Shown: positions 10,568-34,034 of the stretch, piece after piece
Position numbering within the stretch: position 1 is the first letter of the stretch
How the letters are laid out: each line of letters opens with the position of its first letter
DNA from: Lysobacterales bacterium 63-13
Lineage (GTDB): Bacteria > Pseudomonadota > Gammaproteobacteria > Xanthomonadales > Rhodanobacteraceae
Direction of reading: 5' to 3'
NCBI GenBank assembly: GCA_001899855.1
Contig: MKWR01000006.1
Location: 273,764 to 307,886, forward strand
DNA length: 34,123 nt
Program-made: the position numbers and the translations under genes
The notes under the pieces: model-generated
What the model was told of the DNA's origin: nothing
Database searches by the model: none
What the model saw: the letters and a program-made list of their open reading frames with translations, nothing else

Positions 10568-11820
10568 CCGCCGTTCCCCCGATTCACTTCGGCCCACAAG
10601 GTCGAACTCATGCCATAGAGGCGAATGAACCCTTCGGCTTCGGCGACGCCCCAATCGGCGGATTGCGCATAGGTTGCGCCCTTGGCGTTGAGGATATGCG
10701 GCGAGGCGATCGCTACCGCATGCACGCTGCCGCCACGCGTTTCCAGCGTGACCTCGCCATTGACGCAGCGCTGGCTTGATTCGAGGAACGCTTCGAGATC
10801 GGCCTTCAATGGATCATGGAAGAATCCTTCGTAGACCAGCTCGACCCATTGCTTCGCCACGGCTGGCTTGAAGCGGTTCTGTGCCTTCGACAAAACGGTT
10901 TCCTCGAGCGCACGGTGCGCCGCGAGCAAGGCGATCAGGCCGGGCGCTTCGTAGATGATGCGGCCCTTGAGACCAATCGTGGTATCGCCGGTGTAGATGC
11001 CGCGACCGACACCGTAGGCGGCAAGGAGCCGATTGAGCCTGGCCAGCAGCACGTGACCGGGCAGGTGTTCGCCATCCAGCGTCACCGCTTCGCCATGCTT
11101 GAAGCCAAGAGTCACGGTCAACGCACTGGTTGGCCATTCGTCGCGCGGTGCACACCAGCCGCGCGCGCCTTCGCCGGGCGCCTCCCAGCGATCGATTTCA
11201 CCGCCCGACATGGTCAGGCCGAGCAGATTCTCGTTGATCGTGTAGGCCTTCTGTTTGGCACGGACAGCGAATCCGCGCTCCTCCAGATAGCGCTGTTCGT
11301 ATGCGCGGACCTCTTTGTGTTCTTTCTGGATCTCGCGAATCGGCGCGATGATCTCGTAGTCGCCCAGCGCTTTCACGGACAAGTCAAAGCGCACCTGGTC
11401 ATTGCCCATGCCGGTGCAGCCATGCGCAATGCATCGCGTGCCGAGCTCCTGTGCACGTTTGAGCGCGGCCTCGACAATCAGGTAGCGATCCGAGACGAGC
11501 AGCGGGTATTGCCCCTGGTAACCCTCACCGGCCTGCACGAATGGCTTGACGAAGCCGCTCCAGATCGCCGGCCCACCATCAACCGTCACATGACTGGCCG
11601 CACCAAGCTCGACGGCACGCGCTTCGATAAACGCGCGTTCCTCGTCATCGACGCCCCCGGTATCGGCAAACACCGTATGCACGGCATAGCCACGATCCTG
11701 CAGCCAGGGAATGCAGAAACTGGTATCGAGTCCACCGGAGAAGGCAAGGACAACGTCTTTGCCTTCTCCGGCGGCGGGATTCGGGATTCGGGTTTCGGGA
11801 TTCGAAGAAGCTAAAGACAT
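10564..11820 (-). CDS. argG: Argininosuccinate synthase with repeat-derived N-terminal extension
   Basis: ATP-dependent ligation of citrulline and aspartate. The PP-loop [10 protein letters not shown] (about residues 26-35), [28 protein letters not shown] and [13 protein letters not shown] are all present in this 418-residue protein. Family members usually reach the PP-loop within about 10 residues of the start; here about 20 residues precede it and read [11 protein letters not shown]. This stretch is encoded by one arm of the genomic dyad repeat (11776-11805), so the repeat has become coding sequence. The ATG is supported by AGGA seven bases upstream. An upstream Met at 11880 is open in frame but has no such site. 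It follows argF' by 78 bp. Confidence 0.95.
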
Positions 11821-11907
11821 GAGGCAATCCTGGTTGTTTTCGACACGAACGAGCGAAGCGATGAATCCGCTGTTGAACAATCCCTAATCTCCAGTCCCCT
11901 ATCCCGA
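11776..11907. repeat. Dyad repeat element, arg-operon copy
   Basis: Two arms of the repeat family also found in the ribosomal superoperon. Read along the arg transcript, the first arm (11907 to 11878) contains the family core CTGGAGATTAGGGATTG. The second arm (11805 to 11776) is three tandem copies of a CGAATCCCG-like unit. The arms are separated by about 70 bp that hold the argG ribosome site and first codons. The first arm contains the argF' stop codon and the second lies inside argG, so the element straddles two coding ends. Confidence 0.8.
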
Positions 11908-12912: not shown

Positions 12913-12981
12913 GGTGTCCCCTGTGGATTTGCCTGCAACCTTTCCTGCGCTCATGCAGCACCATCCATGGCGCGCCTGCGT

Positions 12982-13117
12982 GCTCCTGCATTGCAGGCAT
13001 GCTTGCCATCCATGGCGATCGCCGGCAACCGCTCCTGCGTTGCCGGCATACTTGCCATCCGTGGCAATCGCCGGCAACTGCTCCTGCGTTGCCGGCATAC
13101 TTGCCATCCGTGGCAAT
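12982..13117. repeat. 49-bp tandem repeat in the argF' leader
   Basis: Two full units (12982-13030, 13031-13079) and a partial third (13080-13117), head to tail, with a degenerate remnant just before (about 12935-12981). Units two and three are nearly identical and unit one more diverged. On the transcript strand each unit has two inverted repeats: TGCCACGGATGGCA, and GCCGGCAAC/GTTGCCGGC around the 9-nt loop GCAGGAGCA. A 49-bp period is not a multiple of three and changes frame each unit, so it is not a conserved protein repeat, although several frames stay open. It lies 70 bp upstream of the argF' GTG and would form a run of hairpins in the leader RNA. Confidence 0.88.
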
Positions 13118-13144
13118 AAAAAACCCGGCACGTAGGCCGGGTTT
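13117..13144 (-). terminator. Intrinsic terminator upstream of argF'
   Basis: Perfect 9-bp stem AAACCCGGC/GCCGGGTTT with a 6-nt loop, followed on the minus strand by a run of T residues. It lies 200 bp after the glycine-zipper gene and 205 bp before argF'. It probably ends the glycine-zipper transcript, but it could also act as an attenuator if the arg operon promoter lies above it. Confidence 0.85.
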
Positions 13145-13169
13145 GGGTCGAAAAACATTGCTGCACGAC

Positions 13170-20452: not shown

Positions 20453-20527
20453 GGTGAAATTCTCGCTATCTGTTGTTATGAAAAGCCGGCACCTGTGTCC
20501 GACTCCCCGCGGTTACCCGCTTATTAT

Positions 20528-20623
20528 TTCGGGATTCGGGATTCGTGATTGGAGGTTCGGAAAAGCGTGACCTCGCGAGGTTGTTGCTATTTCGAATCCC
20601 GAATCCCTGATCTCCAATCCCGG
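20528..20623. repeat. Dyad repeat element between rpoA and rplQ
   Basis: Along the transcript, the first arm begins 7 nt after the rpoA stop as CCGGGATTGGAGATCAGGG, followed by tandem ATTCGGG units. The second arm carries CCTCCAATCACGAATCCCG. Between them lies a 12-bp perfect palindrome ACCTCGCGAGGT (20570-20581). The arms can pair over CGAATCCCGAATCCC. It fills most of the intergenic gap inside an operon that is normally compact. Confidence 0.85.
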
Positions 20624-20630
20624 TGTCAAA

Positions 20631-21626
20631 TCAACCCAACTGCATGCCGTGCGAGATGCCCGGCGGTGGCCAGGAATCAAGCTTCATGCCGAGTGAAAGG
20701 CCGCGCTGTCCGAGCACATCCTTGATTTCAGTCAGCGATTTCTTGCCGAGATTCGGCGTCTTCAGCAGTTCAACCTCGGTCTTCTGCACGAGATCGCCGA
20801 TGTAGTAGATGCTTTCCGCCTTGAGACAGTTGGCCGAGCGCACGGTCAGTTCAAGATCGTCGATCGGACGCAGCAACACAGGGTCGACACCGCTCTTGTC
20901 CGCCTTCGCATCCGCACTCTCGCGGCGAGTGAAGTCGCCAAAAATCGAAATCTGGTCCTGCAGGATCTCCGCGGCCTTGCGCACGGCTTCCTCGGCGTCG
21001 ATCGCACCATTGGTGTCGATCTCGAGGACGAGCTTGTCGAGGTCGGTACGCTGTTCCAGACGCGCGCTGTCGACCTGATAGGCGACGCGACGCACCGGGC
21101 AGAACGAAGCATCGAGTTGCAGGCGACCGATCGGGCGTGCTTCCTCGTCCGGCAGTCGACGCGAAACCGCCGGCTGGTAGCCAACGCCGCGGGCGACCTT
21201 CAAACGCATGTTGAGGGCGACATCCTTGGTCAGGTGACAGATCACGTGCTCGGGATTGACGATCTCGACCGAGTGGTCGACGGTGATGTCACCGGCAGTG
21301 ACCACGCCCTTGCCCTTCTTGCTCAGGGTCAATGTGGTCTCGTCATGCCCGTGCATGCGGATGGCCACGTCCTTGATGTTGAGCAGGACTTCAATGACGT
21401 CCTCCTGCAAACCTTCAAGCGTGGTGTACTCATGCAAGACGTTGTCGATTTCGACCTCGGTGATGGCGCAGCCGGGGATCGAGGACAAGAGGACGCGACG
21501 CAGAGCGTTGCCGAGCGTGTGGCCGAAACCGCGTTCCAGAGGCTCGACCACGACCTTGGCGTGATTGAGACCGGTACGCTCGACTTGAATGCCGCGGGGA
21601 CGCAGCACATTGGTGGATCCTGCCAT
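20631..21626 (-). CDS. rpoA: DNA-directed RNA polymerase subunit alpha
   Basis: RNA polymerase assembly platform, 331 residues. The N-terminal domain (about 1-235) has [28 protein letters not shown] (motif positions ~28-55) and the [17 protein letters not shown] region. The C-terminal domain (about 250-325) has [22 protein letters not shown] and the [16 protein letters not shown] helix-hairpin-helix that binds UP elements and activators. A family-typical linker joins them. It follows rpsD by 28 bp and precedes a dyad repeat. Confidence 0.98.
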
Positions 21627-21654
21627 GAACAGGGACTCCGAAAGTTGCGGTGGA

Positions 21655-22281
21655 TTACTTCGAGTAAAGCTCGATGATCAGGCTCTCGTTGATGTCCGAG
21701 GGCAGATCCGAACGCTCAGGCAGCGACTTGAAAATGCCGCTGAACTTCTTGGCGTCGACCTCGACCCAGGTGGGAACCAGATCCATCTCCTGGGAGACGG
21801 TGACCGATTCCTGCACGCGCAATTGACTGCGTGCGTTCTCGGTGAGCGATATCTCGTCGCCCGGCCGTACCTGGTAGGACGGCAGGTTGACGCGCTTGCC
21901 ATTCACCGAAACCGCGCGGTGGGCGACAAGCTGGCGAGCCTGGGCGCGGGTGACCGCAAAACCCATGCGATAGACGACGTTGTCAAGACGCGCTTCCAGT
22001 TGGCGAAGCAGGTTCTCACCGGCATTGCCCTTCTGAGTCGACGCCTTGACGTAATACTTGTGGAACTGGCGCTCAAGCAGGCCATAGATGCGCTTGACCT
22101 TCTGCTTCTCGCGCAACTGTACGCCGTAGTCGGACAGGCGACCCTTGCGGGCAGCGCCATGTTGTCCAGGCTTCTGTTCCAGCTTGCACTTCGAATCGAT
22201 CGCGCGTGCCGGGCTCTTGAGGCTGAGATCAGCGCCTTCGCGCCGGGCCAGCTTGCAGGTGGGTCCGATATAACGAGCCAT
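21655..22281 (-). CDS. rpsD: 30S ribosomal protein S4
   Basis: Small-subunit assembly initiator and, in many gammaproteobacteria, translational repressor of the alpha operon. The protein is 208 residues beginning [16 protein letters not shown]. The S4 RNA-binding domain is near residues 95-160 ([36 protein letters not shown]). Only C9 and C31 remain at the N-terminus, so it is a zinc-free form. The open frame runs 14 codons further upstream but conservation starts at MARYIGP. Confidence 0.98.
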
Positions 22282-22292
22282 TTCGGTATCCT

Positions 22293-22682
22293 TTAGACGC
22301 GACGCTTCTTCGGCGGACGGCACCCGTTGTGCGGGATAGGCGTCACGTCGATGATGTTGGTAACCTTGAAACCGACGTTGTTCAGCGAACGAACGGCAGA
22401 TTCGCGACCCGGGCCGGGGCCCTTGATACGCACTTCAATTGTCTTGACGCCATATTCGGCGGCAACACGTGCAGCCTTCTCGGCGGCAACCTGTGCGGCG
22501 AACGGCGTGGACTTGCGTGAACCACGGAAACCGGCCCCGCCAGCAGTAGCCCAGGAGAGGGCATTGCCTTGGCGATCGGTGATCGTGACCACGGTGTTGT
22601 TGAAAGACGCCTGCACATGGCAGATTGCGTCAGTCACAACGCGCTTGATCTTTTTCTTCGGCTTGGCGACCGGCTTGTTCAT
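22293..22682 (-). CDS. rpsK: 30S ribosomal protein S11
   Basis: Platform protein contacting the 690 loop of 16S rRNA near the E site. The product is 129 residues, with [39 protein letters not shown] and the C-terminal [17 protein letters not shown], all strongly conserved. A Lys-rich N-terminus (KPKKKIKR) is typical. It sits 18 bp after rpsM and 11 bp before rpsD. Confidence 0.98.
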
Positions 22683-22700
22683 GATTCGTTTCCGGGCAGA

Positions 22701-23057
22701 TTATTTTCTGATCGCACGACGCGGACCCTTGCGGGTACGGGCATTCGTACGCGTGCGCTGACCGCGCATCGGCAGGCCACGGCGATGACGCAAGCCGCGA
22801 TAGCAACCGAGATCGATCAAACGCTTGATCGCAATACCGACTTCCCGGCGCAGATCGCCTTCGACCGTGTACTTCGCAACTTCGTGACGGATCTTCTCGA
22901 CTTCCGCCTCGGTGAGATCCTTGATCCTGGTCGACGGCGCGACACCCGCGTCCAGACAGACCTTTCTCGACCGTGAACGGCCGATTCCAAAAATGCTTTG
23001 CAGACCGATCACAGTATGTTTCTGGACCGGAAGGTTGACACCCGCAATGCGCGCCAT
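22701..23057 (-). CDS. rpsM: 30S ribosomal protein S13
   Basis: Head protein of the small subunit making the B1 bridges to L5 and contacting P-site tRNA. The 118 residues open with [20 protein letters not shown] and include the helix-two-turn-helix region and [30 protein letters not shown] at the C-terminal half. It is the first gene of the alpha operon. The ATG has GGAG about ten bases upstream. rpmJ, often found just before it, is missing. Confidence 0.98.
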
Positions 23058-23100
23058 GTTTGCATGTCTCCGAAAGAACTAAATGCGCAGTGAACTTCGT

Positions 23101-23106
23101 ATTCTA
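23101..23106 (-). promoter_or_regulatory. Candidate internal -10 for the alpha operon (rpsM)
   Basis: TAGAAT on the minus strand, 43 bp before the rpsM ATG, one mismatch from the TATAAT consensus. The matching -35 position is poor and overlaps the perfect stem-loop at 23113-23138. An internal promoter at the head of the alpha operon is plausible in this 131-bp gap. Confidence 0.35.
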
Positions 23107-23112
23107 TCTGTT

Positions 23113-23138
23113 ATCAAGGGAAACTGGAACCCCTTGAT
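23113..23138 (-). promoter_or_regulatory. Perfect stem-loop between secY and rpsM
   Basis: ATCAAGGG and CCCTTGAT form a perfect 8-bp stem around a 10-nt loop, with no T run after it, so it is not a standard terminator. It sits in the leader of the alpha operon genes. It could be a protein-binding operator, an RNA structure for S4 feedback, or an RNA processing site. Function is inferred from position only. Confidence 0.4.
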
Positions 23139-23188
23139 GCCTGCCCCAATCCCTGCGGGAACTGGTGGCAGCAGCCCTTGCCGGCCTC

Positions 23189-24502
23189 TCAGCGACCCTT
23201 GAGGTTCGCCTTCTTGAGCAGGCTTTCATATTGGTGCGAGACCAGGTGGGCCTGGATCTGCGCGGTGAAATCCATGACAACCACGACCACGATGAGCAGC
23301 GATGTGCCACCAAAATAGAACGGTACATGCCAGGCATTGCGCAGCAGGTCCGGCACCAGACACACAGCAACCAGATAAACCGCACCAATTGCAGTGAGGC
23401 GGGTCATCACGCCGTCGATATAGTCTGCGGTCGCCTTCCCAGGCCGCAGGCCCGGAATCAAGGCGCCCGAGCGCTTCAGGTTGTCCGCGGTTTCCTGCGA
23501 ATTGAAGACCAGCGCGGTATAGAAAAAAGCGAAGATCACGATCATCAAGCCGTAGATGACCATGTGCAGCGGCTCGCCCGGGCCCAACGCCGAAGTCAGT
23601 TGTTGCAGCCAGCGGACCTCGTTCGAACTGCTGAACCATGCCGCTGCAGTCGCCGGGAACATGATCAGGCTGGACGCGAAGATCGGCGGAATGACGCCGG
23701 ACATGTTTATCTTCAGCGGCAGGTGCGAGCTCTGGTTCATGTATGCACGACCCGCACCACCCTGCTTGCGGGCGTAGTTGACCGTGATGCGGCGCTGGCC
23801 ACGCTCCATGAAGACGACAAACGCGGTCACGGCGAGGACCGCGACAAGCACCATCATCAGCTTGAGCCAGGTCAGTTCACCGCTGCTGGCCATGCCCAGG
23901 GTATGCACCACCGCAGTCGGCAAGCCGGCGACGATGCCGCCGAAAATGATCAGCGAAATGCCGTTGCCGATGCCGCGCTCGGTAATCTGTTCACCCAGCC
24001 ACATCAGGAACAAGGTACCCGCGGTCAGGCCGACAACCGTACCGAACACGAAACTCGGGCCTGGCGCGTAAACGACACCGGCCTGCGTCTGCAGCATGGT
24101 CGCCACACCGAACGACTGGAACGCCGACAATCCAACCGTGCCCCAACGCGTGTACATGGTCAGCTTGCGCCGCCCCGACTCACCTTCCTTCTTCAACGCC
24201 GCCCAGGCTGGAATGACCGAGCTGAACATCTGCACGACGATGGAGGCGGAGATGTACGGGATCACGCCGAGGGCGAACAAGGAGAAACGGCTGAGCGCAC
24301 CACCCGAGAACATGTTGAACATGTCGATCAGGCCACCGCTGTTGGATACCAGACGAGCCATCGCCTCGGGATTCACTCCGGGAACCGGGATGAAAGAGCC
24401 CAAACGGAAGACGACGAGCGCACCGACCACAAACAGCAAGCGCTGCTTGAGCTCGGTCAGCTTGCCGAGCGATGCCAAACCGCTGGATTTCGGGGCTGCC
24501 AC
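23189..24502 (-). CDS. secY: Protein translocase subunit SecY
   Basis: Central channel of the Sec translocon, 437 residues with ten predicted membrane helices. Landmarks: [23 protein letters not shown] at the first helix, [40 protein letters not shown], and the cytoplasmic loop [17 protein letters not shown], followed by [19 protein letters not shown]. The start is GTG (GTGGCAGCC), two bases after the rplO stop, so translation is coupled. No ATG lies close enough to replace it. A gap of 131 bp follows before rpsM. Confidence 0.98.
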
Positions 24503-24504
24503 GG

Positions 24505-24939
24505 TTACTCGATGCTCCCGCCAGCCGCTTCGATCGCAGCGCGAGCGCCGGCCGTGACTGCGACGCCACGAACCTTGATGGCGCGGGTCAGTTCACCCTT
24601 CTTCACGATCTTCGCCCGCTCGGCGCGGGTCTCGATCAGGCCAGCAGCCTTGAGTGCGTCAAAATCGATGACATCGAGACCAAGTCCATCCAGCCTGTAG
24701 AGGAGGACTTCGCTGATTTCAATTGCCTTCCTGGAACGAAAACCGACCTTCGGCAAACGGCGCTGCAAAGGCATCTGACCGCCTTCAAATCCCGCCTTGA
24801 CCTTGCCCTTGCCGGAACGTGCAAACTGGCCTTTGTGACCACGACCGCAGGTCTTGCCAAGGCCGGATCCGATACCGCGGCCAACGCGAACGCCTTCTTT
24901 GCGCGCGCCGACTGCTGGCTTGAGTGTATTGAGACGCAT
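24505..24939 (-). CDS. rplO: 50S ribosomal protein L15
   Basis: Late-assembly large-subunit protein, 144 residues. [22 protein letters not shown] and the glycine-rich [20 protein letters not shown] are characteristic, followed by [17 protein letters not shown]. The open frame reaches 13 codons further upstream into the intergenic region, but conservation sets the start here. It is coupled to secY with a 2-bp gap. Confidence 0.98.
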
Positions 24940-24967
24940 GGAATCGACTCCTGATTCTGGATGACGC

Positions 24968-25165
24968 TTAGGCGTCATTCTCGACGCTGACGAGGTAGCT
25001 GACCTGATTGATCAGACCACGAACCGACGGCGAGTCTTTCAATTCACGCACATCGTTGATCTTGCGCAGGCCCAGGGCCTTGACGCTCAAACGATGACGA
25101 CCCTGGCAGCTGTTCGGGCTCTTGACCAGGCGCACGCGCACGGTCTTGGGATTTGAATTAGCCAT
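24968..25165 (-). CDS. rpmD: 50S ribosomal protein L30
   Basis: Small large-subunit protein of 65 residues with the family core [28 protein letters not shown] (residues ~8-35) and [17 protein letters not shown]. The ATG lies upstream of the rpsE stop, an 8-bp overlap, which points to coupled translation. It is slightly longer than the E. coli protein at both ends. Confidence 0.97.
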
Positions 25166-25667
25166 TGCCGAGTACCTCTTCAATCGTCTTGCCGCGCTTG
25201 GACGCGATGCCCTGCGGCGTTGCCATGGCCTGCAGGCCGTTGATCGTCGCACGCACCAGGTTGATCGGATTGCGCGAACCGACGGCCTTGGCGAGAACGT
25301 TCTTCACACCGACCACTTCAAGCACGGCGCGCATGGCACCGCCGGCGATCACGCCGGTACCTTCGGAAGCCGGCTGCATGTAGACACGCGCCGCACCGTG
25401 GTTGGCCTTGACGGCGTGCCACAAGGTGCCTTCCTTCAGATCCACGCGCACCATGTTCTTGCGCGCGCGTTCCATTGCCTTCTGGATGGCGATCGGCACT
25501 TCACGCGCCTTGCCGTATCCAAAACCAACCCGGCCCTCGCCGTCACCGACGACGGTCAGGGCGGTAAAACTCATCTGGCGACCACCCTTGACGGTTTTCG
25601 CCACCCGGTTCACCGCGATCAGCTTCTCAAGGAGGCCGTCGCTCGGCTCACGATCATTGCTGGACAT
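25158..25667 (-). CDS. rpsE: 30S ribosomal protein S5
   Basis: Fidelity protein at the mRNA entry channel, 169 residues. The N-terminal double-stranded RNA-binding domain includes [29 protein letters not shown]. The C-terminal domain has [25 protein letters not shown] and [16 protein letters not shown]. The ATG is preceded by AGGTGA. A 172-bp gap with a dyad repeat separates it from the upstream gene rplR. Confidence 0.98.
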
Positions 25668-25747
25668 TTTTCACCTGTGTGCCGGTCACTGGGGATCCGG
25701 ACTTTTGCTTGCGACTTGAGTCGCTTGGAGTTGTGATGGACCAATGG

Positions 25748-25836
25748 GCGGGATTCGATGGCGGGTATTCCGGATTCGCAAGAGCAAAAAACCGCCTTGT
25801 GTTTCCGGATCCCGAATGCCGAATCCCAAATCCCGG
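25748..25836. repeat. Dyad repeat element between rplR and rpsE
   Basis: Along the transcript it starts 3 nt after the rplR stop as CCGGGATTTGGGATTCGG and ends with GCCATCGAATCCCGCC. It is the most diverged copy: the GGAGA core seen in the other four is absent and the arms contain substitutions (GGGATCCGG, GAATACCCG). The loop holds a T6 run (GGCGGTTTTTTGC), so some terminator activity is conceivable, though genes downstream are essential. Confidence 0.8.
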
Positions 25837-25839
25837 CTG

Positions 25840-26193
25840 TTAAAACTTCAAACCCGCTTCGCGCGCGGCATCGGCGAGGACCTTGATGCGACCGTGGTAG
25901 CGGAAGCCCGAGCGATCGAAAGCGACACTTTCGATGCCGACCTTCAGCGCACGCTCGGCAATGGCCTTGCCAACCGCTGCGGCGGCGTCCTTGTTCTTGG
26001 TGCCCTTGAGGCCTTCGGCAACCGCCTTCTGCACGGTCGACGCCGTGGCCAGCACCTTGTCACCCGATGCGCTGAAGACCTGCGCATACAGATGCTGACC
26101 GGTGCGATGCACACTCAGGCGCGGCACACCCAGCGAACGGATATGCATGCGTGTCGATTTGGCGCGGCGAAGTCTTGCGATGTTCTTTTCCAC
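25840..26193 (-). CDS. rplR: 50S ribosomal protein L18
   Basis: 5S rRNA-binding protein of the central protuberance, 117 residues. The sequence has the usual basic start [19 protein letters not shown], then [16 protein letters not shown] and the C-terminal [26 protein letters not shown] split over residues ~92-117. The start codon is GTG, with GGAG seven bases upstream; no in-frame ATG fits. It follows rplF by 27 bp. Confidence 0.98.
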
Positions 26194-26220
26194 TGTCTTT
26201 CTCCGGGAAGCTGAAGTGCC

Positions 26221-26748
26221 TTAGGCCTTCTTGGCTTCCTTCAAGGTGATCTTCTCGCCTGCATAACGCACACCCTTGCCCTTGTAGGGTTCCGGTGGAC
26301 GGAATGCGCGGATCTTCGCGGCGGCCTCGCCGACAACCTGCTTGTCCGTACCCTTGATCAGGATCTCGGTCTGGGTCGGCACTTCAAGCGTGATTCCTTC
26401 CGGGGCCTTGAAAAGGACCGGATGCGAGAAGCCGAGGGTCAGATTCAGATCCTTGCCGGCCAGGGCGGCACGGTAGCCGACGCCAACCAGCTCGAGCTTG
26501 CGCTGATAGCCGTCGCTGACGCCGACAACCATGTTGTTGATCAGCGCCCGGGCGGTACCGGCCATCTTGATGTCGCCCGCGGTCTTGCCGCTCAACAACA
26601 CCTGACCGCCTTCGAGCTTGGCGATGACGCCAGGCGGGGTGGCCAGCTTCAACGAGCCCTTCGGGCCCTTCACCGTGATCGCTTCTGCAGATACCTGCAC
26701 ATCGACGCCTTTCGGCAGCACTACGGGTTTCTTGGCAACGCGTGACAT
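26221..26748 (-). CDS. rplF: 50S ribosomal protein L6
   Basis: Large-subunit protein near the sarcin-ricin loop, 175 residues, with two similar alpha-beta domains. Recognised by [19 protein letters not shown], the KGPKGSLKL segment, [23 protein letters not shown] (about 89-111) and the C-terminal [17 protein letters not shown]. It lies 11 bp after rpsH. Confidence 0.98.
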
Positions 26749-26759
26749 GTTCTCTCTCC

Positions 26760-27155
26760 TTAGGCCACGATGCCGATGACTTCACCACCAAGACCCTTGG
26801 TACGGGCTTGAGCGTCGGTCATGATTCCGGACGATGTGGAGACGATGGAAATTCCGAGGCCGTTGAGCACCTTCGGCAGCTCGTTCTTGCCGCGATAGAC
26901 GCGAAGACCGGAACGGCTGACGCGCTCGATGCGCGCGATGACCGGCTTGCCTTCGTAGTACTTCAGCGCGATCTCGAGAACGGGCTTGCCTTCGCTGGCC
27001 TGCACCAGGAACTCGGACACATAGCCCTCGTCCTTGAGCAGCGTGGCGATGGCAAGTTTCACCCGCGACGACGGCATGCGCACTGCGCGCTTGCCGGTAG
27101 CCTGGGCGTTGCGGATACGTGTGAACATATCCGCGATGGGATCAGTCATGCTCAT
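26760..27155 (-). CDS. rpsH: 30S ribosomal protein S8
   Basis: Central-domain 16S rRNA-binding protein that in E. coli also represses the spc operon through an rplE site. The 131 residues start [18 protein letters not shown] and end with the invariant [26 protein letters not shown] region. It is separated from the upstream gene rpsN by 167 bp holding a dyad repeat, a break in a part of the operon that is usually tight. Confidence 0.98.
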
Positions 27156-27198
27156 GTTTCAAACATCCTTTGAGGCATCGATATCCGAATCGGTGAAG

Positions 27199-27319
27199 AT
27201 CCGAGATTTGTGAATCGGGATTCGGGATTCGCAGGAGAGGGTTAGCGCAACTTTCGCTTTTGGCGAATCCCGACTCCCGGTTTTCAGCAGCCGAACGGCT
27301 GGTAATCTCCAATCCCGGG
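27199..27319. repeat. Dyad repeat element between rpsN and rpsH
   Basis: Along the transcript it starts 3 nt after the rpsN stop as CCCGGGATTGGAGATTACC. An inner palindrome CAGCCGTTCGGCTG comes next, then CGGGAGTCGGGATTCG. The second arm is CGAATCCCGAATCCCG, continuing to CAAATCTCGGATC, which mirrors GGAGATT in the first arm. This is the longest ribosomal copy, about 120 bp. Confidence 0.85.
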
Positions 27320-27322
27320 TGT

Positions 27323-27628
27323 TTACCAACTCGCCTTGCGCAGACCCGGCACGTCGCCACGCATGGTGGCCTCGCGGAGTTTCATGCGGCCAAGGCCGAA
27401 CTTTTCATACACGCTGCGCGAGCGACCAGTCAGTGCACAACGACTGCGCTGACGGGCAGGACTCGAATCACGTGGCAACTTCTGCAGCCTGGTGGCAGCC
27501 TCGAGTTTCTCCTCGTAGGAAGCCTTCGGGCTGCTGACGATCTTCTTGAGCTGATCGCGCTTTGCTGCGTGTTTCTTGACGAGCTTCGTGCGCTTGTTCT
27601 CGCGCATGATCATTGAAGTCTTGGCCAT
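27323..27628 (-). CDS. rpsN: 30S ribosomal protein S14 (zinc-free form)
   Basis: Small-subunit head protein, 101 residues, the length of the type without a zinc ribbon: the CxxC...CxxC motifs are absent and only one Cys (SRCALTGR) remains. Recognised by [34 protein letters not shown], and the C-terminal [20 protein letters not shown]. It follows rplE by 24 bp. Confidence 0.98.
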
Positions 27629-27652
27629 TGCCGGTATTCCTGCGTCGCTGTA

Positions 27653-28195
27653 TTAGTTGCGGAACGGAAAACCAAAGGCTTCAAGCAACGCCTTCGCTTC
27701 TTCGTCGGTACGCGCAGTCGTGGTGACCGCGATATCCATGCCGCGCAATGCGTCAATCTGGTCGAAATCGATCTCCGGAAAGATGATCTGTTCCTTGACG
27801 CCCATGTTGTAGTTGCCGCGTCCGTCGAACGAACGACCGGAAATGCCGCGGAAGTCGCGCACGCGCGGCAGCGAGACGTTGACCAGGCGATCGACAAACT
27901 CGAACATCTGCGCACGGCGCAAGGTGACCTTGCAGCCGATCGGCCAGTTGTCACGGATCTTGAAGGTCGCGATGGACTTCTTCGACAGCGTGATGATCGG
28001 CTTCTGTCCGCCAATCTTGGTCATGTCGGCCACGGCGTTCTCGAGAATCTTCTTGTTGCCGACCGCCTCACCCACGCCCATGTTGAGCGTGACCTTGGAC
28101 AGGCGCGGCACCTGCATCGGATTCTTGTAGCCGAAACGCTCGGTCAGCTTCGGAACGATCGTTTCTTTGTAGATGGTTTCAAGACGCGTTGTCAT
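27653..28195 (-). CDS. rplE: 50S ribosomal protein L5
   Basis: Binds 5S rRNA and forms the B1b bridge with S13. The protein is 180 residues, with [73 protein letters not shown] and the [16 protein letters not shown] end. The open frame goes on upstream through rplX in another reading frame, but homology and position (10 bp after rplX) set this start. Confidence 0.98.
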
Positions 28196-28205
28196 TGCGG
28201 CGGCC

Positions 28206-28520
28206 TCAGACGTCGACAACTTCGCCAGACGGGCGGAAAACGCGAACCTTGCGACCGTCTTCAAGAGTCTTGAAGCCGACGCGTGCGCCCTTGCCCGTTG
28301 CGGAGTTGAACAACTGTACGTTAGAAATGTCGATCGAAGCCTCGCGCTCGATGATTCCACCAGGCTGATTGGCCTGCGGATTCGGCTTCGTGTGACGCTT
28401 GACCAGATTGACGTTCTGCACGAACACGTGGTCACCGACCACGCGTGAGACTTCGCCCTTCTGACCCTTGTTCTTGCCGGCGATCACGATGACCTGATCA
28501 CCCTTGCGAATACGGTTCAT
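28206..28520 (-). CDS. rplX: 50S ribosomal protein L24
   Basis: Early assembly initiator of the large subunit, 104 residues, with a KOW motif near the N-terminus ([28 protein letters not shown]) and [20 protein letters not shown]. It follows rplN by 14 bp and precedes rplE by 10 bp, first of the spc-operon pair rplN-rplX arrangement. Confidence 0.98.
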
Positions 28521-28534
28521 GTCGTCTATCCCGT

Positions 28535-28903
28535 TTACAGCACTTCTGGAGCGAGCGAGACGATCTTCATGAACTTCTCGCCGCGCAGCTCGCGCGTCAC
28601 CGGCCCGAAAATACGGGTCCCGATCGGCTCGAGCTTGTTGTTGAGGAGGACTGCCGCATTGCCGTCGAAACGGATCAGCGAACCGTCGGCGCGACGAACT
28701 CCCTTGCGGGTACGCACGACAACGGCGTCGTAAACCTCACCCTTCTTGACCTTGCCGCGCGGAATCGCTTCGCGCACGGATACCTTGATGACGTCGCCGA
28801 TCTGCGCGTAGCGGCGCTTCGAACCACCGAGCACCTTGATACACATCAGTTCGCGAGCGCCGCTGTTGTCCGCTGCGGCCAGCGTGGTCTGCATCTGGAT
28901 CAT
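28535..28903 (-). CDS. rplN: 50S ribosomal protein L14
   Basis: Large-subunit protein at the interface with the small subunit, 122 residues. [40 protein letters not shown], and the C-terminal [20 protein letters not shown] are fully conserved. In E. coli it opens the spc operon; here 28 bp from rpsQ leave no room for a separate promoter that I can see. Confidence 0.98.
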
Positions 28904-28931
28904 GTTACTTGCTCCTTACGTCCCGGACCGT

Positions 28932-29195
28932 TTACTGCGCGGCCCGCGCGACGATTTCGACCACGCGCCAGTTCTTCGTCTTCGACAACGGTCGTGTCTC
29001 GGAAATGCGCACGACGTCGCCTTCCTGACATGAGCCATCGGCGTCGTGGGCGTGCACCTTCGTCGAACGGCGGATGATCTTGCCGTACAACGGATGCTGA
29101 ACCTGGCGTTCCAGCAGGACGGTGACCGTCTTCTGCATCTTGTTGCTGACCACACGCCCTTCAAGCGTGCGCGCATTCTTCTCTGTTTCGCTCAT
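28932..29195 (-). CDS. rpsQ: 30S ribosomal protein S17
   Basis: Primary 16S rRNA-binding OB-fold protein, 87 residues. Landmarks: [40 protein letters not shown], the [20 protein letters not shown] segment and VVEIV near the end. The start MSETEKNAR is slightly variable in the family. It is 12 bp after rpmC and 28 bp before rplN. Confidence 0.98.
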
Positions 29196-29207
29196 CGCAG
29201 GTCGTCC

Positions 29208-29396
29208 TTACTTCTTGCTGCCAAGGACGAATTTGACCTGCGCGATCTCGCGCCGGACACGTCCGAACTGGTGGGTTTGGGTAAGCTGACCGGAGCCCTT
29301 CTGCATGCGCAGGTTGAACTGCTCACGACGAAGCTCGCCGAGATGCTCGTTCAGCTCCTTCTCCGATTTCTGGCGAAGATCTTTGAGTTCCATCAC
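29208..29396 (-). CDS. rpmC: 50S ribosomal protein L29
   Basis: Exit-tunnel protein close to the signal-recognition-particle and trigger-factor docking site. It is 62 residues, two helices, with [18 protein letters not shown] (after an initial M), [20 protein letters not shown] and [13 protein letters not shown]. The ATG overlaps the rplP stop (ATGA), which couples translation. Confidence 0.98.
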
Positions 29397-29806
29397 AGCA
29401 CCGTTCTTGTTACAAACTGGGTCTGAACCGAGAGCTTTGCAGCGGCCAGGCGGAACGCCTCGCGTGCAGTGGTCTCGTCAACACCCTCGATTTCATAAAG
29501 CATCCGGCCCGGTTGAATCGGAGCCACCCAGAATTCCACACTACCCTTGCCGTTACCCATACGAACCTCGATGGGCTTCTTGCTGATCGGCTTGTCCGGG
29601 AACACGCGGATCCACAACTTGCCACCGCGCTTCACGAAGCGCGTGATGCAGCGGCGAGCGGCTTCAATCTGACGCGCCGTCAACTGGCCGTGCGTCGTTG
29701 CCTTGAGACCAAACGAGCCGAAGCTCACCTTGGTGGCCACATACGACAGACCCGGATTACGGCCCTTTTGCACCTTGCGGTACTTGGTTCGCTTCGGTTG
29801 CAACAT
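29393..29806 (-). CDS. rplP: 50S ribosomal protein L16
   Basis: Late-assembly protein next to the A site. The product is 137 residues: [40 protein letters not shown], the region RKGGKLWIR-like ([20 protein letters not shown]) and [20 protein letters not shown] with [10 protein letters not shown] following. The Arg in the KGSV/PIQPGRM part corresponds to the residue hydroxylated in E. coli. It follows rpsC by 11 bp. Confidence 0.98.
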
Positions 29807-29817
29807 GATTCAGTTCC

Positions 29818-30519
29818 TTACTTCGCCGAAGACCGACGAGGCGCGCGCTCTTCGCTGGCCTCGGTCTTCGCTTCTTGCGTGGCAGCATGCAGGTCAAAGA
29901 TCTCGCCCTTGTAGATCCAGACCTTGACTCCGATGATGCCGTAGGTGGTTTGCGCTTCTGCCAGGCCGTAGTCGATGTCCGCACGCAGTGTATGCAGCGG
30001 CACGCGACCTTCGCGAGCCCACTCCGAACGGGCGATTTCCGCGCCATTCAAGCGTCCGCCGACATTGACCTTGATGCCCAGTGCGCCGAGGCGCATCGCA
30101 TTCTGCACCGAGCGCTTCATTGCGCGACGGAACATGATGCGGCGCTCAAGCTGCTGGGCAATCGATTCGGCGACAAGCTGCGCATCGAGCTCGGGCTTGC
30201 GCACTTCGGTCACGTTGATGTGGGCCGGAACTCCCATCACCGCGGAGACTTCCTTGCGCAGCTTCTCGATATCCTCACCCTTCTTGCCGATGACCACACC
30301 CGGACGTGCCGTGTGGATCGTCACCCGCGCCGTCTTGGCCGGACGCTCGATCGTGATCTTGGAGATGCCGGCCTGGGCAAGCTTCTTCTTCAGCAGCTCG
30401 CGCACCTTGAGATCGGCAGCCAGATAGCCGGCGAAGTCGCGCTTGTTGGCGAACCACTTGGAATTCCAGTCCTTGGAAACACCAAGGCGAAAACCAATCG
30501 GATTGACTTTATGACCCAT
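29818..30519 (-). CDS. rpsC: 30S ribosomal protein S3
   Basis: mRNA entry-channel protein with helicase activity, 233 residues. The N-terminal KH domain carries [20 protein letters not shown]; the C-terminal domain includes [39 protein letters not shown] and [19 protein letters not shown] charged Lys/Glu/Arg-rich tail closes the protein. It lies 12 bp after rplV. Confidence 0.98.
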
Positions 30520-30531
30520 CGTTTGCGTCCT

Positions 30532-30861
30532 TTACTCGCCCACGACCACGGTGATGTGGCTGGTGCGCTTGGTAATACGGTTTCCACGGCCTTTGGCGCG
30601 TGCATGCATACGCTTCAGTGACGGGCCCTCGTCGACAAAGATCTTCGAGACCAGCAACTCGTCGACATCGGCGCCGAGGTTGTTCTCGGCATTGGCGACA
30701 GCCGACAGCAGAACCTTCTTGACCAGGTGTGCAGCCTTCTTGTCGCTGAAGGCGAGCAGGTTGGTGGCACTTCCAACCGGCATGCCACGCACCTGATCGG
30801 CGACGAGGCGTACCTTCTGGGCGGAGATGCGCGCACTGCGCAGTATAGCTTTGGCTTCCAC
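30532..30861 (-). CDS. rplV: 50S ribosomal protein L22
   Basis: Lines the nascent-peptide tunnel; its hairpin tip is the known site for macrolide and arrest-peptide contacts. The 109 residues have [40 protein letters not shown], and the tip region [20 protein letters not shown], all normal. The start is GTG (GTGGAAGCC) with AAGGAG eight bases upstream; no ATG is available near it. Confidence 0.98.
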
Positions 30862-30873
30862 GACGCTATCTCC

Positions 30874-31158
30874 TTACTTCTTCTTGTCGGCGGTTTTCTT
30901 GTCGCCGGAGTGACCCTTGAACGTGCGGGTCACGGCGAACTCGCCGAGCTTGTGACCGACCATGTTCTCGTTCACCAGAACCGGCACATGTTGGCGGCCA
31001 TTGTGGATGGCCAGGGTCAGGCCGACCATTTCCGGCGAAACCATGGAACGGCGCGACCAGGTCTTGATCGGGCGCTTGTTGCTGCCTGCCGACACCGCCT
31101 CGACCTTCTTCAGAAGGTGGTGGTCGATGAACGGGCCTTTCTTCAATGAACGAGCCAT
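30874..31158 (-). CDS. rpsS: 30S ribosomal protein S19
   Basis: Head protein forming a complex with S13, 94 residues. [50 protein letters not shown]-type segment [20 protein letters not shown], and [17 protein letters not shown] are conserved. It sits 8 bp after rplB and 12 bp before rplV. Confidence 0.98.
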
Positions 31159-31166
31159 GATCTATC

Positions 31167-31994
31167 TCAACCTCTGCGATCGCGCACGATGAACTTGTCG
31201 GTGCGCTTGTTCTTGCGCGTCTTGTAACCCTTGGTCGGCATGCCCCACGGCGACACCGGATGCGGATTACCCTGGCCAGCCTTGGCTTCACCACCACCGT
31301 GCGGGTGATCAACCGGGTTCATGGCCGCACCGCGAACGGTCGGACGAATGCCACGCCAGCGGCTGGCGCCAGCCTTGCCGAGCTTCTCGAGGCTATGCTC
31401 GGAATTGCCGACCTCGCCGATCGTCGCACGACACTCGGCAGGCACCTTGCGCATCTCGCCGGACCGCAAACGCAGGGTCGCATGACCTTGCTCGCGGGCG
31501 ACCAGTTGCGCCGATGCACCGGCCGCACGCGCAATCTGCGCGCCCTTGCCAGGCTTCATCTCGATGCAATGAACCGTCGAACCAATCGGAATATTGCGCA
31601 GCGGCAACGAATTGCCGATCTTGATCGGTGCCTCGCGACCGGCCATGAGCTGGTCGTCGACCTTTGCACCCTTCGGCGCAATGATGTAACGACGCTCACC
31701 GTCTGCGTACAGCAGCAAGGCGATATGCGAAGTGCGATTCGGATCGTACTCCAGGCGCTCGATGCGGCAGGCAATGCCTTCCTTGTCGCGCTTGAAGTCA
31801 ATGATGCGGTAGTGCTGCTTGGATCCGCCGCCCTTGTGACGCGTGGTGATGCGACCGTAATGGTTGCGTCCACCCGTCTTGTTCTGCGATTCCGTCAACG
31901 GCGCATACGGTGCGCCCTTGTGCAGGCCAGGCGTCGAAACGCGGACTGCGGAACGACGACCTGCGGATGTGGGCTTGAGTGTAATCAGTGCCAT
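31167..31994 (-). CDS. rplB: 50S ribosomal protein L2
   Basis: Core large-subunit protein needed for subunit association and peptidyl transfer, 275 residues. It begins [19 protein letters not shown] and has [20 protein letters not shown], a central RNA-binding part, and the C-terminal [20 protein letters not shown] with the conserved His important for activity. It ends with a basic [19 protein letters not shown] tail. It lies 12 bp after rplW. Confidence 0.98.
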
Positions 31995-32006
31995 GGATAA
32001 TTCACC

Positions 32007-32297
32007 TTAGGCCTTGGCCATCACGTCGATGGATTGACCTTCACCAAGACGTACATAGGCCTTGCGCTTGTTGCCGCGAGTGCCGTTTCTTTGACGGAAA
32101 GCCTTGGTCTTACCCTTGAGGTTGACCATATTCACCGCCTCGACCTGCACGCTGAACAATTGCTCGACCGCCTCTTTGACATCGGCCTTGGTCGCGCCCT
32201 GCGCAACCTCGAACACATACTGGTTGGTTTCCTGCAGGCGCGCCGTCTTTTCGGAGATCAGCGGAGCGCGCAGCACGTTGTAGAGATTCTCATTCAT
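32007..32297 (-). CDS. rplW: 50S ribosomal protein L23
   Basis: Exit-tunnel protein that docks trigger factor and SRP, 96 residues: [40 protein letters not shown], and [20 protein letters not shown]. The start ATG overlaps the rplD stop (ATGA), and the longer open frame upstream is rplD read out of frame. Confidence 0.98.
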
Positions 32298-32896
32298 GCC
32301 AGCCACTCCTCGATCTTCTTGATCGAATCGACAGTCATCACCACGTGATCCGCGCCAACCAGACTGACCGGGTCGATCGCAGCTGCGTCCACCACATGCA
32401 CATACGGGATATTGCGGGCAGCCAGGAACAAGGCTTCCGGGGCATTCTCGGCAACCAGGACGCAACGCCCCGTCACGCCCAGCTCGGCGAGCTTGGCGAC
32501 CAGCGACTGCGTCTTCGGCGTGTCGATGCCGAACCCGTCAACGAGGCGCAGGCGATCGGTGCGATTGAGTTCGGAAAGAATCGAAACGAGCGCGCCACGG
32601 AACATCTTGCGATTGACCTTCTGCGCAAAACTGCGCGGCTTGGCCGCGAAGGTCACGCCACCACCGATGAAGATCGGCGCCTTGAGCGCACCATGACGTG
32701 CACCACCGCCCTTCTGGTTCTTCGACTTCTTGGTGGTACCGCTCACTTCGGAGCGGGTCAGCTGGGCCTTGGTGCCGGAGCGACCGGCATTGCGGTAGGC
32801 AACGACCACCTGGTGCACCAGATCCTGGCGAAATTCCTTGCCGAAAACGGCATCGGAAACGCTGACGGGCTTGGAGCCTATGACATTGATTTCCAT
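32294..32896 (-). CDS. rplD: 50S ribosomal protein L4
   Basis: Large-subunit protein lining the tunnel; in E. coli it also represses the S10 operon. The protein is 200 residues with [20 protein letters not shown], the extended loop [20 protein letters not shown] and [20 protein letters not shown]. The chosen ATG has AAGGAG seven bases upstream; a GTG codon directly before it is in frame but badly spaced. rplD follows rplC by 11 bp. Confidence 0.97.
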
Positions 32897-32907
32897 CACT
32901 TCGCTCC

Positions 32908-33549
32908 TTATGCCTTGACCGCGGGACGGATGATCAGGTTGCCGCCTTTGGCACCCGGCACCGAACCCTTGATCGCGATCAAATGGCGTTCGCTGTCGAT
33001 CTTGACCACTTCAAGGTTCATTGCCGAACGGCGCACGGCACCCATGTGGCCGGACATCTTCTTGCCCGGGAACACGCGCCCCGGCGTCTGCCGCTGGCCA
33101 ATCGAGCCCGGTGCACGATGCGACAAGGAGTTGCCGTGCGTCGCGTCGCCCATCTTGAAATTGTGACGCTTGATGGTGCCCTGGAATCCCTTGCCCTTGG
33201 TGATGCCGGCAACGTCCACGATCTGCCCGACCGTGAAAATGTCGTCAGCCTTGACCTCACCACCGACGTTGAACTTCGCCAGTTCGTCTGCTTCCAGACG
33301 GAACTCCCAAAGTCCGCGACCCGCCTCGACCTTGGCCTTGGCGTAGTGACCCGCAAGCGGCTTGTTGACAAGCGCCGCGCGCTTGCTTCCAGCCGTTACC
33401 TGGATCGCGTTGTAACCATCCACTTCCGTGGTCTTCACCTGGGTCACGCGATTCGGTGTCGCTTCAATCAGCGTCACCGGAATCGAGCGGCCGTCTTCCG
33501 TGAAGATCCGGCTCATGCCGCATTTGCGGCCTACCAATCCGATACTCAT
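32908..33549 (-). CDS. rplC: 50S ribosomal protein L3
   Basis: Early assembly protein reaching towards the peptidyl-transferase centre, 213 residues. Landmarks: [40 protein letters not shown], and [20 protein letters not shown]; the Gln in GQRQTPG corresponds to the residue methylated by PrmB in E. coli. It lies 22 bp after rpsJ. Confidence 0.98.
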
Positions 33550-33571
33550 CGTCGTGTCCTATCTGCCGCTA

Positions 33572-33883
33572 TCAGTAGAGCTTGATCTGGACGTCCACAC
33601 CGGCCGCCAGGTCCAGCTTCATCAGGGCATCCACGGTCTTGTCGTTGGGATCGACAATATCCAGCACCCGCTTGTGAATGCGCGTCTCGTATTGATCCCG
33701 CGCATCCTTGTCTGCATGAGGCGACACCAGGATGGTGTAGCGCTCGATCTTGGTTGGCAGCGGAATCGGGCCACGCACCTGCGCACCCGTGCGCTTCGCC
33801 GTTTCCACGATCTCGCTGGCCGAACGATCGATCAGGCGATGATCGAAAGCCTTGAGCCTGATACGAATCTTCTGGTCTGCCAT
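33572..33883 (-). CDS. rpsJ: 30S ribosomal protein S10
   Basis: Small-subunit protein and NusE partner in transcription antitermination. The product is 103 residues: [40 protein letters not shown] and [20 protein letters not shown]. An upstream in-frame start 12 codons earlier is not conserved. It follows tuf by 150 bp that include a dyad repeat, in the place where E. coli keeps the S10 leader. Confidence 0.98.
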
Positions 33884-33944
33884 TTCCGCTGTTTCCTGGT
33901 TGGGGCAAGGGGCGCGCACACCCCTGGCCGCTCATTGTTTTGCC

Positions 33945-34027
33945 TGGGAATGGGGAGTTGAGAATCGGGAATGGTCAAAGCCGTGTTTCGCTTTGCCGAT
34001 TCCCTATTCCCTGTTCTCCATTCCCGG
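33945..34027. repeat. Dyad repeat element between tuf and rpsJ
   Basis: Along the transcript it starts 7 nt after the tuf stop as CCGGGAATGGAGAACAGGG and goes on with AATAGGGAATCGG. The apex is CAAAGC/GCTTTG around an 8-nt loop, and the second arm ends CCATTCCCGATTCTCAACTC and CCCATTCCC. It is the most regular hairpin of the family, about 83 bp, with units of GGGAATCGG rather than GGGATTCGG. Confidence 0.88.
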
Positions 34028-34034
34028 CTTTTGC

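Follow-up and report, generated by a model that had tools for sequence, protein, structure and literature searches.

How did four similar palindromes come to lie directly behind stop codons inside a ribosomal superoperon in which most neighbouring genes nearly touch? The question is raised by a 34,123-nt stretch of Lysobacterales bacterium 63-13 DNA (GenBank contig MKWR01000006.1, positions 273,764 to 307,886; hereafter the window), where palindromes built of heptamer repeats occupy the rpoA/rplQ, rplR/rpsE, rpsN/rpsH and tuf/rpsJ junctions. The first-pass annotation had offered two explanations, a mobile element preferring gene ends and selection for an RNA hairpin. Empty sites, defined ends, phasing to stop codons in the sampled third of the genome and a preference for minimal convergent gaps support the former: copies are present in some lineages at places that are near-empty in others. 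On balance we lean toward the view that the four copies are members of a mobile, high-copy family of discrete palindromes that insert and persist right behind stop codons, foremost in convergent gaps of 10–60 nt.

All four copies were found where the first-pass annotation had put them, on the minus strand, 3–7 nt after a stop codon and in gaps of 151–178 nt (rpoA/rplQ 178, rplR/rpsE 172, rpsN/rpsH 167 and tuf/rpsJ 151 nt; Table 1). After its spacer each copy opens with (C)CCGGGA, and all share a common plan: after GCC come about four GGGAWTN heptads, then CG, an apex near AAAGC and a loop, and finally the reverse complement. Between rpsJ and rplQ, 3 of 26 junctions carry a copy; 22 of the remaining 23 lie between −8 and 28 nt, the exception being secY/rpsM, long at 131 nt and free of a copy. 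Folded as RNA, the rpoA, rplR, rpsN and tuf copies reach z-scores of −2.90, −3.27, −4.62 and −7.26, with 0, 3, 0 and 0 of 200 shuffles folding as well. A fifth window copy, the arg copy, folds no better than its shuffles (z +0.34); the TAG stop (11901-11899) of the open reading frame (ORF) 11899-13158 falls within its first heptad, CGGGATAGGGG, the stop-bearing element sequence being GGATAGGGG. Allowing up to two mismatches, GGGATTCGGGA matches the window 31 times against 11.8 expected, a count reached by none of 100 shuffles. The GGAGA core singled out by the first-pass annotation is indeed present in three of the four superoperon copies; it is not a family feature, as it occurs in just 11 of 110 arms of the sampled genome (stop side 1/29 and start side 5/29 tandem cases).

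The copies are part of a much larger set. In the host genome (3.75 Mb, 36 contigs) the exact heptad pair GGGATTCGGGATTCG occurs 54 times, and a longer pattern allowing up to two mismatches 169 times, both against none in a reversed control and with overlapping matches counted separately. We annotated palindromes in 1.21 Mb of this genome (1061 predicted genes), finding 55 palindromes and 15 single arms, as well as in 400 kb each of two same-genus genomes, G003 (6 palindromes) and G006 (none). Some of the host stretches were fetched for their matches, which raises overall occupancy, and copy density was therefore not estimated. Tandem GGGANTN heptamers of at least two units are present, with four units as the mode when arms of at least three units are counted (11/19 5' arms, 11/19 3' arms and 13/25 single arms); some arrays are longer than usual. 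The heptad type, AAT or ATT, is the same in both arms of 48 of the 55 copies, and at one site may differ between species. The separator bases match between arms somewhat above expectation (74 vs 57 of 165). The outer edge is defined by GCC before the first GGG (G in 76, C in 66 and C in 70 of 110 ends; exact GCC in 40), and both this edge and the apex, near CG..AAAGC, are found again at unrelated loci. Beyond the outer GCC we observe no clear flank consensus or motif at the 110 ends except the stop triplets themselves: 41 of 69 stop triplets (in any frame) near the ends sit 1–3 nt before it. In 828 kb the paired arms are inverted and convergent, with 19 pairs G-first and none C-first. This takes the force out of the remark that one arm always comes first, since a palindrome with a G-rich 5' arm reads the same on both strands and the order is automatic.

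To place the family relative to stop codons, genes in the samples were called with a custom script, the stops of which agree with a separate annotation for all 27 ribosomal-operon genes; two starts differ (rplC, and rplW by one codon, where the comparison list was off), and the larger sample was re-run without a new check. Of the 55 host palindromes 45 are intergenic, one lies at a contig edge and three are in divergent gaps. The distance counts leave out the contig-edge and divergent copies, nine that overlap genes, two in-gene copies among the six of G003, and all single arms (15 in the host and 4 in G003). For the resulting 33 tandem copies (29 host and 4 G003) the first heptad starts a median of 6 nt behind the stop: 24 lie at 0–13 nt, 6 overlap the gene end and 3 are beyond 13 nt. 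Their placement within the gaps is far from uniform (Kolmogorov–Smirnov p=1.5e-7 for 29 of the 33 cases, the other four, with slack of 10 nt or less, being left out). The start side is looser, with a median of 24 nt, and 26 of the 29 host tandem copies are nearer the stop than the start. In three tandem copies the element's own AATAGGG provides the TAG stop of the upstream ORF. The 13 convergent gaps have both ends of the element near stops, with a median of 5.5 nt; 19 of the 26 ends lie within 0–13 nt, 3 overlap and 4 are beyond 13 nt.

Gap size is the second signature. Around convergent copies the median slack is 12 nt; convergent gaps free of the repeat have a median of 77 nt (p=2e-5). For neither tandem nor convergent gaps does any of 5000 length-biased draws come out as low as the observed slack. 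Copies occupy 9 of 38 convergent gaps of up to 25 nt, 4 of 32 gaps of 26–60 nt and 0 of 79 longer ones (Fisher p=2e-5 for ≤25 vs >60 nt). Divergent gaps, of which 3 hold copies and 133 are empty, are not occupied significantly less often than gaps that contain a stop (Fisher p=0.26).

We looked for empty sites in nine genomes of the same genus (G001–G009), which are 80–88% identical to the window over 8–11 kb of operon sequence; Dokdonella fugitiva (L082, 79.9%) falls in that range, just level with G006, and Dokdonella sp. L079 (78.5%) comes slightly under it, which makes the genus probably Dokdonella or a very close one. Four convergent sites were chosen for having both ends close to stops. 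At site 8 the host gap of 112 nt corresponds to 10 nt in G005 and 34 nt in both G007 and G002; at site 50, where G002 has heptads, 125 nt correspond to 12 nt in G003 and 11 nt in G004; and at site 33, 137 nt correspond to 20 nt in G007 and 17 nt in G002. Site 34 gave no gap comparison, as its neighbours are never together in one relative. Other relatives have 57–1240 nt without heptads, as far as printed, or 4–7 nt in two distant ones. Both arms and ends thus appear jointly at sites that are near-empty in sister species, and with sister gaps of only 10–20 nt at three of the four convergent sites the units behave as discrete insertions. We saw no target-site duplication by eye, the sister flanks being too diverged for a firm reading. 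At site 8, G008 (L246) carries a different repeat array of 452 nt, which suggests that the convergent slot takes unrelated repeats too.

Within the superoperon the four junctions differ in how widely heptads are shared. Heptads are present at rplR/rpsE in 6 and at rpsN/rpsH in 7 of 10 genus members, the window included in both counts; of the remaining three at rpsN/rpsH, two have short gaps (G001 42 nt, G008 38 nt) and one has other hairpins; in G010 this junction is near-empty too, at 44 nt. At rpoA/rplQ only G002 shares heptads with the window, the remaining eight genus members having 223–367 nt of other sequence. At tuf/rpsJ, heptads occur in G002, G003, G004 and G007; in their place G008 has 284 nt and G009 has 325 nt of other sequence. 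This junction is not readable in G001, G005 and G006 and is readable in 41 loci of a wider set of relatives, in which at least four genomes are represented twice (L053/L129, L016/L130, L025/L131 and L058/L133). By eye, the longer spacer of repeat-free G008 and G009 (L126, L127) at tuf/rpsJ (window 33884-34034) holds a promoter-like TTGACG..TATTACACT, a stretch missing from the heptad-bearing relatives, in which the S10 genes may therefore depend on upstream transcription.

Across 80 named relatives the gap exceeds 60 nt in 76/79 cases at rpsN/rpsH, 80/80 at rplR/rpsE, 71/77 at rpoA/rplQ and 58/58 at secY/rpsM, and heptad-like units, by a loose criterion, are found in 10, 16, 6 and 4 of those relatives, respectively. 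The spacing is thus found more widely than the repeat itself. At the superoperon junctions there are indeed relatives in which the spacing is the same and the sequence unrelated, the outcome that the first-pass annotation had named as refuting its idea, and spacing alone is accordingly no evidence for the repeat. What fills these gaps in repeat-free relatives is often folded: among gaps of at least 130 nt, after a redundancy filter (first 60 nt less than 60% alike), the first 60 nt fold with z<−2 in 19/24 cases behind tuf, 16/33 behind rpsN, 9/18 behind rplR and 22/32 behind rpoA, as opposed to 1/24, 3/33, 3/18 and 2/32 for the last 60 nt, with the proviso that the repeat-free class may hold decayed heptads. 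The bases behind the stop in the superoperon look like a free slot of which the palindrome is one of several fillers.

Taken together, the palindromes would integrate right after stop codons and be maintained there, most of all between closely spaced converging genes. Copies may survive there because the few bases after a stop are often the only ones free of coding, leader and ribosome-binding signals, and also because the hairpin could supply a 3' end or insulator where neighbouring units previously had none. In the superoperon, each copy comes after the stop and ahead of the conserved stretch that precedes rpsH, rpsE, rplQ or rpsJ, and would fill a slot that in relatives is often held by an unrelated post-stop hairpin.

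A number of results weigh against this account. Nine of the 55 host palindromes overlap predicted genes by more than 25 nt. Tandem slack (median 34 nt) is not significantly smaller than in repeat-free tandem gaps (47.5 nt, p=0.24). At rpoA/rplQ and tuf/rpsJ relatives have longer spacers, implying replacement, or insertion plus deletion, and at site 33 the gap of G005 is 160 nt without heptads. Folding in repeat-free relatives is not confined to the start of the junction, as the middle 60 nt fold well too (tuf 9/24, rpsN 10/33, rplR 6/18, rpoA 3/32), and copy-free secY/rpsM is well folded in 8/24 first, 10/24 middle and 2/24 last segments. In repeat-free flanks of the host sample hairpin starts are broadly spread with no peak, and in G006 hairpins are no commoner than in shuffles (108 vs 104). 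The loops are equally awkward. Comparing loops longer than 40 nt, we find them unrelated in nearly all copies, with one clearly related pair, which is odd for a copy-and-paste element; the loop at site 33, a copy that the sisters lack, occurs just once in the genome, the best other match being 30 nt long (E 0.011). Finally, an arm matches its own partner no better than a swapped arm of the same type (AAT 19.61 vs 19.59 and ATT 19.35 vs 18.90 of 27; permutation P 0.25); the data thus fail to show base-pairing selection. For the hairpin hypothesis of the first-pass annotation this leaves indirect support, from the unrelated hairpins often found at the same junctions in repeat-free relatives, and none from the arms. 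Generic post-stop hairpins were rejected as the origin of the tight phasing, as the repeat-free ones start anywhere from 0 to 25 nt.

Loops were further compared with the host sample (42 of 55 being of sufficient length): loop 44 has matches to other dispersed repeats; the matches of loops 0, 12, 27, 33 and 49 are weaker, and extra heptads inside these loops account for some. Between species, loop identity at three junctions is near-random (0.44–0.50 vs 0.42–0.43 for shuffled loops); the single pair at rpoA/rplQ, window and G002, is related (0.55 vs 0.39). Overall, between-species identity is 0.61–0.76 for arms and 0.44–0.55 for loops, and we rely on the loop values only, because the script split some copies badly (e.g. 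the window rplR copy).

A stronger version of the mobile-family account, which we put forward tentatively, has integration directed to gene 3' ends, typically 1–3 nt behind the stop as measured to GCC, fitting convergent gaps of 10–20 nt, with loops that are nearly always different; in the superoperon, promoter- or hairpin-bearing spacers would have been replaced and transcription units tied together. Carried to its end, with the integration machinery itself recognising the stop region or converging transcription and selection playing little part, the idea becomes rather unlikely. It would explain the tight stop phasing, the fact that sites occupied here are convergent gaps of 10–20 nt in sister species, and the vacancy of all 79 convergent gaps above 60 nt, which offer far more sequence. 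However, past GCC the flanks have no clear motif other than stop triplets, copies are found overlapping genes and in divergent gaps, and no enzyme has come to light in the two families tested. The Y1 (RAYT) transposase was rejected as the mobiliser, since its presence does not follow heptamer number: G005, G015, G022 and G026 have 46, 17, 51 and 61 heptamer matches yet no Y1_Tnp hit at E≤0.001, while G001, G006 and G008 have Y1_Tnp hits but 0, 0 and 1 heptamer matches; the host genome has one hit. Reverse transcriptase was rejected as well, none being found at E≤1e-8 in heptamer-bearing G002–G005, G007 and G009. That neither of these two families, the only ones tested, tracks the repeat also counts against the mobile-family account.

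Could tolerance alone account for the pattern? A selfish repeat inserting at random and surviving outside coding and leader sequence would leave the conserved leaders intact, as the copies do, and the ordinary slack in tandem gaps and the divergent occupancy speak for it too. Such an element should, however, gather in long gaps, yet the long convergent gaps hold none, no length-biased draw reaches the observed median, and placement within tandem gaps is non-uniform. The scarcity of copies in long convergent gaps disfavours the simple form of this model, and we regard it as improbable.

Liang, Rudd and Deutscher reportedly found repetitive extragenic palindromic (REP) elements within 15 nt of stop codons in E. 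coli. The sequence of E. coli REPs is unrelated to that of the heptamer palindromes. By analogy, a hairpin less than 15 nt from the stop might stall terminating ribosomes and so lower expression of the upstream gene. Ribosomal-protein and elongation-factor genes are highly expressed, and it is these that all four copies follow, with two of the sites retained in 6 and 7 of the ten genus members, which argues against such a function. The resemblance, palindromic extragenic repeats directly behind stops, is real: 30 of the 33 tandem copies are no more than 13 nt from the stop or overlap it, inside the 15-nt limit of the stop-proximal E. coli REPs described, with reference to stalling work, in PMC12306157. 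The same source places just 446 of 4,072 E. coli REPs within that limit, and we give translational control of this type a poor chance.

Growth by heptamer slippage at hairpin-prone gene ends without mobility, perhaps for G-quadruplex formation, would suit the tandem heptads with their four-unit mode and longer arrays, and quadruplexes have been measured for oligonucleotides of such repeats (Rehm et al. 2015, PMC4692102), but the recurrence of apex and outer GCC at unrelated loci and the joint appearance of arms and ends at sites near-empty in sisters make it very improbable.

Proximity to stop codons is itself not new, and in this respect the first-pass annotation, which held stop-codon phasing inside essential operons to be undescribed as far as it knew, was wrong: such proximity is seen both in the E. 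coli REPs of PMC12306157 and in Xanthomonas. In Rehm et al. 2015 (PMC4692102), the Xanthomonas repeats are GGGNATC (GGGAATC) heptamers, four units being the mode, mostly intergenic, lying on the coding strand no more than 50 bp from stops and on average 28 nt from the 5' neighbour, and forming inverted pairs in convergent orientation, of which two genomes have 70 and 75; loci are stable and generally not linked to mobile elements. Transcription and quadruplex formation in vitro also mark this kind of repeat. The palindromes studied here share the heptamer, the four-unit mode, the inverted convergent pairs, the intergenic location and the position close behind the stop of the 5' neighbour. The kind of repeat is already known; what is new here are the defined ends, the near-empty sister sites, the preference for minimal convergent gaps and the loops that are not shared. 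A host from another family of the order and the superoperon copies are further differences. Among the open-licence literature matches listed, judged by title and the opening of the abstract, we found no report of copies in ribosomal-protein operons or of empty sites for this family.

Foldback elements and miniature inverted-repeat transposable elements (MITEs) have inverted arms, defined ends and no coding capacity, the arms of foldback elements consisting of short tandem units. Defined terminal inverted repeats and empty sites are MITE traits that the palindromes display; unlike foldback elements or MITEs, they have no shared interior, and no partner transposase turned up in the families tested; as for target duplication, the diverged sister flanks showed none by eye. 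GTAG/CGTC-tagged REPs, which go with RAYT transposases, are likewise palindromes scattered near the ends of genes, where they may provide the TAG of an upstream ORF (PMC3733652), as three tandem copies and the arg copy do here. The tags of those REPs are missing, with GTAG near 7 and CGTC near 0 of 110 ends, and there is no dependence on Y1 transposases. In Xanthomonas, according to PMC4199771, a pair of regulators can bind upstream of flhB only where there is a TCCCGAATCCCGA motif, which resembles the heptad.

Table 1. Palindromes and conserved stretches in the window
Feature	Position	Strand	Remarks
Heptamer palindrome, rpoA/rplQ	20530..20623	-	7 nt past rpoA stop; sequence, fold
Heptamer palindrome, rplR/rpsE	25747..25836	-	3 nt past rplR stop; sequence, fold
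Heptamer palindrome, rpsN/rpsH	27201..27319	-	3 nt past rpsN stop; short hairpin nested in 5' arm
Heptamer palindrome, tuf/rpsJ	33944..34027	-	7 nt past tuf stop; sequence, fold
arg copy (operon name from the first-pass annotation, unchecked)	11773..11906	-	First heptad supplies stop of upstream ORF
Conserved structured leader before rpsE	25668..25734	-	Downstream of palindrome, intact; 18-species alignment
Conserved CGGATATCGATGC stretch before rpsH	27156..27187	-	In filled and empty sites; by eye
Conserved AAGCGGGTAACCGCGGG stretch before rplQ	20453..20522	-	In filled and empty sites; by eye

The nested hairpin of the rpsN/rpsH copy (window ~27280-27303, core CCAGCCGTTCGGCTG) is found in G003 (L121) at a different heptad; its core occurs three times in the 1.21-Mb host sample, this copy included, and twice in that of G003. 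The rpsE leader contains two helices, picked by eye on the same alignment of 18 species (the window and 17 relatives) that then served for counting: 4 of the 9 pairs have changes on both sides, and in the second helix 85% of cells are paired. Further pair types are not above shuffles (413/500 reach the count), and Rfam has no match in the window at gathering thresholds. The stretch is possibly an undescribed ribosomal-protein leader. Elsewhere in the window, at 12982-13128, three copies of a 49-bp direct repeat follow one another head to tail (100, 88 and 69% relative to the reference copy).

A repeat known so far by description, heptamers near stop codons, becomes with its near-empty sister sites a testable mobile element. 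The set of insertions, those in ribosomal-protein operons included, can be used to ask how a hairpin placed behind a stop codon affects translation, transcript ends and operon structure. Should integration itself prove to be aimed at gene ends, the target rule would be an unusual one among bacterial elements.

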